From positions 29,009,753 to 29,073,752 of the forward strand of contig CP141149.1 in assembly GCA_035235625.1 (NCBI GenBank): a stretch of 64,000 bases of DNA, in the 5' to 3' direction. The notes below the pieces were generated by a model. It was given only the letters and a program-made list of their open reading frames with translations. It did not search any database and was not told the DNA's origin. Position numbers and translations under genes: made by a program. Shown one piece after another: positions 53,534-56,416 of the stretch. The stretch is from Saururus chinensis (taxonomy: Eukaryota; Streptophyta; Magnoliopsida; Piperales; Saururaceae). The first letter of the stretch is position 1, and every line of letters begins with the position of its first letter.

Positions 53534-54171
53534 GTTGTTGAAGCTGCCCTGCTTTCCAAAATATAGCGTTATGAGAAGAGACTAATAGAAGTGGAACCTC
53601 GTGTGAGTATGATACATAGTGAGTATATTCTTTTTACTTATTGGAGGGAGATAAAATATATATGATGTTCCTGGATTTTCTTACTATAGTTTCTGAAGAC
53701 AATACTCTCTCTCAGGTTCTTGCATTACTTGAGGTATTGCCTAATCAATTGACAGCTAATATATTAATTAGCAGAGATTCGCATCAACAAACAAACCTTG
53801 GTAGTGCTTCATAATTATTCCTAAATATTTAAAACTGAGTACCAAAAGTTTTGTATTTTTTTTCAAATGTCTTAATTAGCATTAAATGAAATGCTAATTT
53901 GTTCTTTGTCTGATCCAATTTGAATTGGGCTCTAGGGTAGGAGCTCTGGGACAAATGCTTCTTGATCTTCTTGAAGATACTGATGAAATAAGGCGCATTT
54001 GTGTCATGGGAAGGAATTGTACTGTTTGAAAGGGGAGTGATGTGGAATGCTCTCTCCCTATAGAAAAGCAGATTGCTGAACGTATTATTTGCCTCATACA
54101 CTTAGATATTTAGTCTTTTATTTGCATGAAGTTCTAGAATACTAAAAAAGAAGTCCCTTGAGACTAATTGG

Positions 54172-54218
54172 ATATATATATATATATATATATATATATA
54201 TATATATATATATATATA
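54172..54218. repeat. (TA)n microsatellite
   Basis: About 23 perfect TA units within an intron of the captured MRS2 fragment. Confidence 0.95.
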
Positions 54219-54637
54219 GCATAAAAAGTTATCAGTGATGATATCGTTAAAATATGTTATTAGTTGATTGGAATTGTCAAATTTGGTTTCATTAACATCT
54301 GGTATTAGATAACAGCTTTGTCATGTTCACATTCTAATTTTGAACAATCATAATGATTTCCTTCTTTAATGTGACAAATCTCTTAATATAATTCCCTTAT
54401 GTCTACAGAAGAAAAAGAAAAAATTGAAATGATCTTAGAAAAGTATTTTCAAAGGTTTGTATGGGATGTTTATGCAAAAGTTACTCTGGAATGAGATTTT
54501 AATTCCATGAAATTGTTTCTTACTACTTAATAACTTAAATTGTGAGTAATTTTGTGAATTTACATATGTTTTCCTATTTTGAAACTCTAAAAAGTTAGAT
54601 TTCCGTTCTAAAGATCCTTTTAACTGGAAGGGCGGCT

Positions 54638-54870
54638 TATGAACCTTATATATATATATATATATATATATATATATATATATATATATATATATATATA
54701 TATATATATATATATATATATATATATATATATATATATATATATATATATATATATATATATATATATATATATATATATATATATATATATATATATA
54801 TATATATATATATATATATATGTTATGTTAGTTGATTATGAACCTTATATATATGTTATGTTAGTTGATT
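54638..54870. repeat. long (TA)n tract in one of two tandem 33-bp units
   Basis: The unit reads ATGAACCTTATATATATGTT followed by ATGTTAGTTGATT and occurs twice. The downstream copy (54838-54870) has four or five TA steps. In the upstream copy the same TA run has grown to about 87 units (54647-54821). It lies in an intron of the captured MRS2 fragment. Confidence 0.9.
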
Positions 54871-56416
54871 CTGCAAAGCATCTTCAACTGTACAAGTATA
54901 CACAAGTAGAAAATTGAATCAGGCAGATGTTTTATGGTATTCTTGTGTCAATGATACATTTTATTGCTTGTGTTCTGTCAGATGATTTTAGTGGAGAAAA
55001 ACTAGAATGTCCTGAGATAGTCTTACATAATTTCATTAACACATTGTTCCCATTTTACACCATGTAGTTTAGAAATGATCGCACTTCTTTTGAAGAGTTT
55101 TTTCCAATAACGAATTTAACATTTCTAGCTCTTCATTGAGGTTTTTCTTGTTTTTGTTGCTTATTAATAAATCTAATTCCAGATGTGAATCTTGTCATGG
55201 GCAAGCAGAAAGACTTCTTGATTCTGCCAGGGAAATGGAAAACTCAATAGCAGTTAACTTAAGGTTTGTTTTAAAAGACTGAAAGCTTGTTTATTCTTGT
55301 GATTTTCTGGAGGTTTTGTATCAAACTTTAGACCACTATATGTGTCTAACATTTTTACTGACTTCCATTATGAATTAGAAATTCAGCTTTTCCTCCTTTT
55401 GATGTCTTCTAGCTCTCGGAGGCTTGAAGTGAGTAGAGTGGAGTTACTTCTCCAGGTTGGGACATTTTGCGTTGTTGTTGGTGCTTTGGTAGCTGGTATG
55501 CATCTCCTTTTGCTGCTGTAAACTTATACTGAGAGAGTGAGAGTGGGTCAGTCAGTACTTGATTCCTTTTAATCATTTCAGCTATAAGCAAGTATTTATC
55601 TTAAGAGTCTCATTCAACACACAGTTTTCTTTAGTATATATGGAGAAAGCTATAATGTGGTCCATCTAGCATCCACTTTATCATCATCATCATCTACACT
55701 TCATCCAGGCTGTTTAGAGTCAACATTGTAGATTCTACACCACCATTTGACTGTTATTATAATAAAAATGATAACAAAATTCCATGTGAGAACGTAATGA
55801 CAAGAATTTATGCGTGGATGTCTTTCTGAAAGCAATGCTAAGGAGGAATAATAAGATGAAAATTCACCACCGTTGTTATTATCATAGTGTACCTCTCTAG
55901 TTATTTGGCATTTATTGGCCTCATCAGATGATGGTTGCACTTGAAACATTGCTATGATTATCTTCCAAGAGATAGTTGGGAACAATTTTAACGAGTCTAC
56001 TTGTGTATGAAAGTATAACCAGCCATCTAGTAGTATTAGCGGACATTGTACACACTGCATTTATGCATGTTCTATTTCACAATTCAGTTTCTACTTCAGC
56101 TAGCCTGCTGGATCTGTGATACATCCATGCTTTCCAGTTATACAATGTTGGTTTGAAATTTTGAATTTAAAATTAGGTTTATTTTTATATATTGATCGAG
56201 CTCAATTTGAGCTGGGCTTTCCATTATAATGGAATGAGTTCGAGCTCGAGTTCGAGCTCGAGCTCATGTTTTTTGGTTTGAGATGAGTTCGAGCTATTAG
56301 GCTCAAGCTCGTTTGAGCCTTGAGTCGAGTTTGAGTTGAGTATTCCAACTTCAAGTTCGAGCTGCATGAGGCAAAAACTCGACTCGGCTCGGCTCGTTAG
56401 CACCCCTAGTTGTGAG

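Follow-up and report, generated by a model that had tools for sequence, protein, structure and literature searches.

How does a cut-and-paste transposon come to carry several consecutive exons of a host gene together with their introns? How such elements pick up genes is an unsettled question, and it is raised here by a hAT element in a 64,000-nucleotide stretch of DNA (the window; C10:29009753-29073752), in which an earlier note had recognised exons of a magnesium-transporter gene. The genome searched comprises 516 Mb in 11 contigs. In the reading that we favour, with a probability of roughly 0.87, the hAT took up a ~3-kb piece of DNA from an MRS2/MGT10-type gene and spread it, and the same slot in the element received pieces of other genes, with template switching as the likely route. 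The hAT element in the window is designated W, other hAT copies bearing the MGT10 piece are C, A and D-H, and relatives without it are N1-N8.

The hAT element and its insertion site

The complete element lies at 44085..56408 of the window on the + strand (12,324 bp), with limits placed by its ends, its target-site duplication (TSD) and its sister copies. It begins with TAGGGGTGCTAATG (first base 44085) and finishes with CGTTAGCACCCCTA (last base 56408), and its terminal inverted repeats (TAGGGGTGCTAA / TTAGCACCCCTA) are short, as in the hAT superfamily. The 8-bp TSD expected of that superfamily is present as GTTGTGAG at 44077..44084, as placed by the empty-site alignment, and at 56409..56416, matching at 8/8 positions. 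The transposase gene (47206..52543, + strand) is broken by stops and two nested elements. Pfam searches on its separate open pieces returned Dimer_Tnp_hAT (1.2e-18), hAT-like_RNase-H (1.7e-9) and zf-BED (2.1e-5), and W thus has the hAT dimerisation domain by which transposases of the superfamily are recognised.

Three nested elements are insertions later than W. The one at 45707..46220, which is missing from the other copies, has a 10-bp TSD (GTTATGCTCA, 10/10), and from the length of that TSD we take it to be MULE-like. A small hAT-type element occupies 48197..49438 (TSD GTTGACTC, 8/8), and a solo-LTR-like element of the form TG...CA occupies 50403..52412 (TSD CTCGT/CTCAT, 4/5). Minus these three and their duplicated target bases, W measures 8,535 bp.

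The site of insertion can be compared with a tandem duplicate that has no hAT (60818..61003, + strand). The joined flanks of W align to it without interruption over 166 columns, so the whole 12.3-kb unit was inserted at this site; the left flank is 87% alike to 59956-60987 of the same duplicate. The earlier note had held that a fragment present at the corresponding place without the hAT would speak against capture; at the paralogous site, both the hAT and the gene piece are absent. The tandem duplication itself (41273-44084 / 58803-60987; 95% and 87% alike, with homology resuming at 63546) contains the hAT in one of its copies only, and the duplicated gene is presumably aquaporin-like, of the TIP type. 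Elsewhere in the window, an inverted repeat pair at 57460-58567 (112 nt, 88%) surrounds 554 nt and is itself enclosed by another pair at 83%; this is possibly a small element. Two adjoining 483-bp copies at 9030-9991 are 100% identical.

The captured MRS2-type block and its donor

The captured block, introns included, spans 53050..56119 on the + strand. Its start falls between 53050, where hAT homology ends, and 53128-53213, where gene homology starts: at 53128 against an old second copy of the gene and at 53214 against the donor, with 53050-53127 left without assignment. Sequence common to the relatives returns in the 3′ subterminal and terminal region of the hAT (56138..56408, +).

Exon limits were placed by alignment to the donor gene, and all six exons lie on the transposase strand (+). 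Exon 1 (53534..53602) contains an in-frame stop, exon 2 (53716..53800) a 4-bp insertion that shifts the frame, and exon 3 (53919..54081) an in-frame stop downstream of an acceptor changed from AG to AA. Exons 4 (54409..54454) and 5 (55183..55263) are followed by exon 6 (55413..55495), which encodes the first transmembrane stretch and reaches up to the intron preceding the GMN exon. Because of the stops in exons 1 and 3, the frameshift in exon 2 and the destroyed acceptor of exon 3, the fragment in W is a pseudogene. That of copy C is broken too, by a shift in exon 3 and a stop in exon 4.

The donor is a locus at C10:16024049-16025808, in which all six exons are open; downstream of them come an exon encoding IFGMNL and a final exon that closes with a stop. 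In Blast comparisons against fetched loci, W matches it at 91.3% over 53214-54655 and at 89.9% over 54836-56119, and identities of this order over two stretches to one gene locus put the six-exon match far beyond chance. The donor yields Pfam matches to MRS2-like (PF22099, 6.8e-12) and CorA (PF01544, 6.2e-9), and the best solved structures for its peptide are MRS2; the MRS2-like domain and the GMN motif together identify an MRS2/CorA magnesium transporter. Sequence searches thus give MRS2-like/CorA, and among MRS2 genes we assume the subtype to be MRS2-11/MGT10. Another locus, C10:33053462-33055282, was rejected as donor, being only 73-84% alike over pieces and having a stop in the exon-6 part. 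It is instead an old second copy, now broken, of the MRS2-type gene (L025, L026), and it keeps intron sequence (corresponding to 53128-53213) that the present donor is without.

The earlier note's central observation, six MRS2-type exons inside a single hAT and on the strand of its transposase, is confirmed by the donor alignment, the ends and the 8/8 TSD. It had given the piece as 53534..55495, with splice sites. The exons stand, but the captured block is larger, at ~3 kb reaching 56119, and the splice sites are not all intact. The piece does end before the GMN exon, as the note had stated: the donor match runs to locus base 15432, and with the start of the GMN exon at ~15542 the breakpoint lies ~110 bp upstream.

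Hosts and contents of the 3′ slot

The MGT10 piece was found in eight hAT copies (W and seven others), two of them with transposase and six without; copy counts for this family are lower bounds, with 40 of 1278 first-look candidates scored. Copy C, on C3, is 8,238 bp long, retains the transposase region, has both MGT10 junctions as in W, and is flanked by its own 8/8 TSD. The six copies without transposase (A, D, E, F, G and H) have position 46383 joined to 53378 and continue the same hAT frame as W. TSDs match at 8/8 positions in seven of the eight copies and at 6/8 in H. Copies F and G have the same flank, so the eight copies represent seven insertions, and since MGT10-bearing copies have their own TSDs at these seven insertions, the element has transposed with its cargo.

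W and C are tied together by their common junctions. The left MGT10 junction is deleted in the six transposase-less copies, for which a separate capture of MGT10 is possible because that junction is missing. A tree of the captured MGT10 piece is near a star, with the donor not set apart from the hAT copies, so by sequence alone more than one capture from this donor is possible. In W, C and A, 31 of 1682 ungapped columns are changed alike relative to the donor, a pattern indistinguishable from change on the donor branch. After their MGT10 piece, the six transposase-less copies carry a SEC63 piece and a ~1 kb FAD-oxidoreductase piece, part of the latter missing from copy E.

Relatives without MGT10 were found by searching with 52413-53380, and eight were fetched. 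Their hAT homology to W stops at 53044-53049 in 8/8 and resumes at 56138-56140 in 6/8, the 3′ end lying outside the fetched stretch in N3 and N7. These borders define a slot, which in N4 is empty, with an uninterrupted stretch of 538 bp between the borders. At least eight copies match the transposase piece at ≥85% (W, C, N1, N8, N3, N2, N4 and N7; the next is at 77%), and besides the empty N4 and the unclassified slot sequence of N7, their slots hold pieces of MGT10 (W, C), MCM8 (N1, N8) or SEC63 (N2, N3). Outside the slot, the largest extra stretch relative to W is ~105 bp among the copies covered from the left end (C, N1, N3, N4 and N8); N2 and N7 were left out of this comparison, their 5′ halves not being in place in the fetched stretch. 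The left part of N2 is located on the opposite strand ~11 kb away (C11:32271333-32285272), which suggests a rearrangement. N5 and N6 (L031, L032) are without most of the transposase and have a slot insert of ~0.6-0.7 kb relative to N4, common to C1:6249168 and C4:17605829. No host gene was recognised in this insert, and it was not adopted as a gene capture. Like N7, these two copies show that a slot may be filled by something other than a recognisable gene.

Counting the MRS2 piece, this hAT family thus carries pieces of at least four host genes. That of MCM8 occupies slot bases 134-1114 of N1; it is 95.8% identical to C3:38817391-38818371, the sole place outside hAT elements where it was found, and among solved structures its peptides match MCM8 at 1e-39. 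For the SEC63 piece, identity is 93% to C4:2747867-2748380 and 88% to C6:44474871-44475388. The name of this piece rests on matches to SEC63 structures at 1.3e-11, since Pfam gave no significant family for it (best E 0.16, with unrelated names). N3 retains 148 bp of this piece. The FAD-oxidoreductase piece is 90.7% identical to C4:24562136-24563167 (L036), an interval that covers the first codons, and sequence upstream of them, of a gene with NAD_binding_8 (7.3e-11). The MGT10, MCM8 and SEC63 pieces all retain introns, which means that DNA was the material captured. The TSD, the empty site, the donor, the second copy and the relatives without the piece all support the earlier proposal of genomic, intron-containing capture by a hAT with transposase.

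Remnants in the slot bear on the order of these events. Immediately after the MGT10 block in W, 17 bp (56120..56136, +) match exactly exon 1 of the FAD/NAD(P)-oxidoreductase donor gene (L036). This 17-mer occurs in 8/8 MGT10-bearing copies (0-2 mismatches) and in 0/8 copies without MGT10, and it is absent from the MGT10 donor locus. Positions 56120-56137 (18 bases) might be read as filler or as the last part of the captured gene, but this was dropped, given the exact match of 17 of them. The remnant suggests the footprint of another capture, with the contents of the slot probably overwritten in sequence. In N1 and N8, 79 bp from the central part of the FAD donor piece survive, at 82%. In a backbone tree, support is 99/98 for W with C, 99/98 for N1 with N8 and 97/95 for the four together, with the SEC63 copies outside. 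On the simplest reading, the oxidoreductase piece would have entered the ancestor of W, C, N1 and N8 and would later have been mostly replaced, by MGT10 in the W/C branch and by MCM8 in the N1/N8 branch. Identities to the donors (oxidoreductase 91, SEC63 93, MGT10 94-96, MCM8 96%) agree with that order, although the pieces differ in the constraint on them. Alternatively, gene conversion between hAT copies would account for the remnants. In the search tables, a left part of the hAT with an oxidoreductase piece and a SEC63 piece also appears at C2:40076952-40080643, a possible intermediate.

Mechanism and relation to known systems

Capture and spread follow from the element with its TSD and empty site, the donor loci, the copies with and without the piece, and the junctions. 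The process would have begun with a break inside the hAT element, between the transposase gene and the 3′ subterminal repeats, into which repair by template switching would have copied a ~3-kb, six-exon genomic piece. The element then spread the MGT10 piece by cut-and-paste. The slot also received MCM8, SEC63 and FAD/NAD(P)-oxidoreductase pieces, and later pieces probably replaced earlier ones in part. Template switching fits the internal borders, the chained pieces from unlinked loci, the 5-bp overlap (TATCA) at the MGT10/SEC63 join and the leftovers of earlier cargo. Against it, microhomology at the other joins is short or absent, and the 5-bp direct match at the MGT10 borders does not exceed chance. 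The slot presumably tolerates cargo by virtue of lying outside the transposase and end sequences. Perhaps it is just the one region in which cargo leaves mobility unharmed, in which case a special site is unneeded. A stronger version, which we put forward tentatively and consider somewhat doubtful, is that the family has a slot dedicated to cargo. On this view a site 3′ of the transposase, either prone to breaks or permissive, is serially overwritten by genomic gene pieces in sense orientation as the element goes on moving, and a readable order of capture results in which FAD and SEC63 came earlier and MGT10 and MCM8 followed in separate branches. Such a slot, if true, would offer a natural system for studying gene acquisition by cut-and-paste elements.

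Other routes by which a hAT could come to contain a gene piece fare less well. Two neighbouring hAT copies flanking a donor gene might have been excised jointly, as for Pack-CACTA. This model has been published for Pack-TYPE elements (PMC8903248; PMC13317346), and one copy here (C_C3b) does have a second hAT of the family ~200 bp upstream. However, the pieces sit deep inside the element, between internal hAT sequence on the left (53049) and on the right (56138) rather than beside the ends, and pieces from several unlinked donors follow one another in a single slot. The 4 kb fetched at the FAD donor (C4:24562136-24563167) contained no hAT match, and apart from the captured block the element had no match in the 20 kb surrounding the MGT10 donor; joint excision is therefore unlikely. 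The earlier note had also considered that ends of a different element, such as a Helitron, might bound the fragment. Gene capture is best known from the Helitron and Pack-MULE classes (PMC2528002), yet a nested carrier is very improbable here, since border repeats are no better than chance: the best direct match at the MGT10 borders (5 nt) was equalled by 203/500 controls and the best inverted match (6 nt) by 186/200 control pairs. Borders of this kind call for neither a nested carrier nor long homology. The right border has no CTRR end, the Helitron features looked for at the cargo border (no TSD, a CTRR 3′ end with hairpin) were not found, the W unit having a TSD, and the transposase-less copies continue one hAT frame. 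Nested and adjacent hATs do occur (48197-49438), so two separate hATs, or a hAT beside an old MGT10 pseudogene, might only seem to enclose the fragment; the single 8/8 TSD around the whole unit, the empty site, and copies on other contigs, such as C with the same junctions and its own 8/8 TSD, make this barely conceivable.

A further question is whether the cargo has been kept for an effect, by sense read-through, chimeric or small RNA acting on the parent gene or shielding the element. All four gene pieces run in the direction of the transposase (4/4; p = 0.125, two-sided), as expected if antisense cargo were selected against. The antisense-like RNA envisaged in the earlier note does not fit this arrangement: since the MGT10 piece runs in the same direction as the transposase gene, any read-through transcript would be sense. 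Against retention for an effect, the exons are broken in W and C and cargo is replaced rather than retained, and we regard such a role as quite improbable. The MGT10 fragment is most likely a passenger pseudogene. In annotating this genome, care is needed with fragments resembling MGT10, MCM8, SEC63 or the oxidoreductase, since some of them belong to transposons.

Gene capture by hAT elements is already known from Hatvine-6 and Ds2, and the family of W is an unusually well resolved case. One genome holds donors, an uninterrupted relative, transposase-bearing copies, transposase-less descendants and leftovers of old cargo, and because these coexist, the order of capture and the break points can be read; capture is seen to occur in transposase-bearing hAT copies. 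Our literature search, with subscription papers outside its scope, brought up no description of a single hAT slot occupied by more than one gene, and the main text of a 2026 review of plant gene capture contains no word beginning with 'hAT' (PMC13317346).

In grapevine, members of Hatvine-6 are described as sharing transposase and ends, with the rest often unique and matching genic exons and introns (PMC2528002). The present family has the same organisation; unlike Hatvine-6 as described there, its variable part is bounded to one 3′ slot by comparison with an uninterrupted relative, four donor genes can be named, two with donor sequence in hand, and the order of overwriting is readable. In maize, Ds2-22 carries two exons and one intron, and Ds2-22 and Ds-l4 are, like W, hAT elements with captured intron-containing gene fragments from another chromosome (PMC3260210). 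They are without transposase, whereas here a transposase gene, though broken, is retained in two copies, and the captured exons number six. The maize paper calls hAT gene capture unreported before, although the 2008 grapevine paper had described it (PMC2528002). Pack-hAT elements have been counted in rice and maize (PMC8903248), and the family of W likewise has captured host coding DNA between its ends and a TSD. Pack-TYPE elements are by definition non-autonomous, which suits the six transposase-less copies but not W with its broken transposase gene. As described, the pipeline of that survey files elements matching transposase as autonomous, so elements of the W type would have gone uncounted in it. 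Animal Pack-TIRs resemble the present family in their filler between element parts, internal breakpoints and proposed origin by template switching, but they are reported to be mostly single-copy and near their parent, whereas here cargo from other chromosomes, or from 13 Mb away, has spread (PMC8277862).
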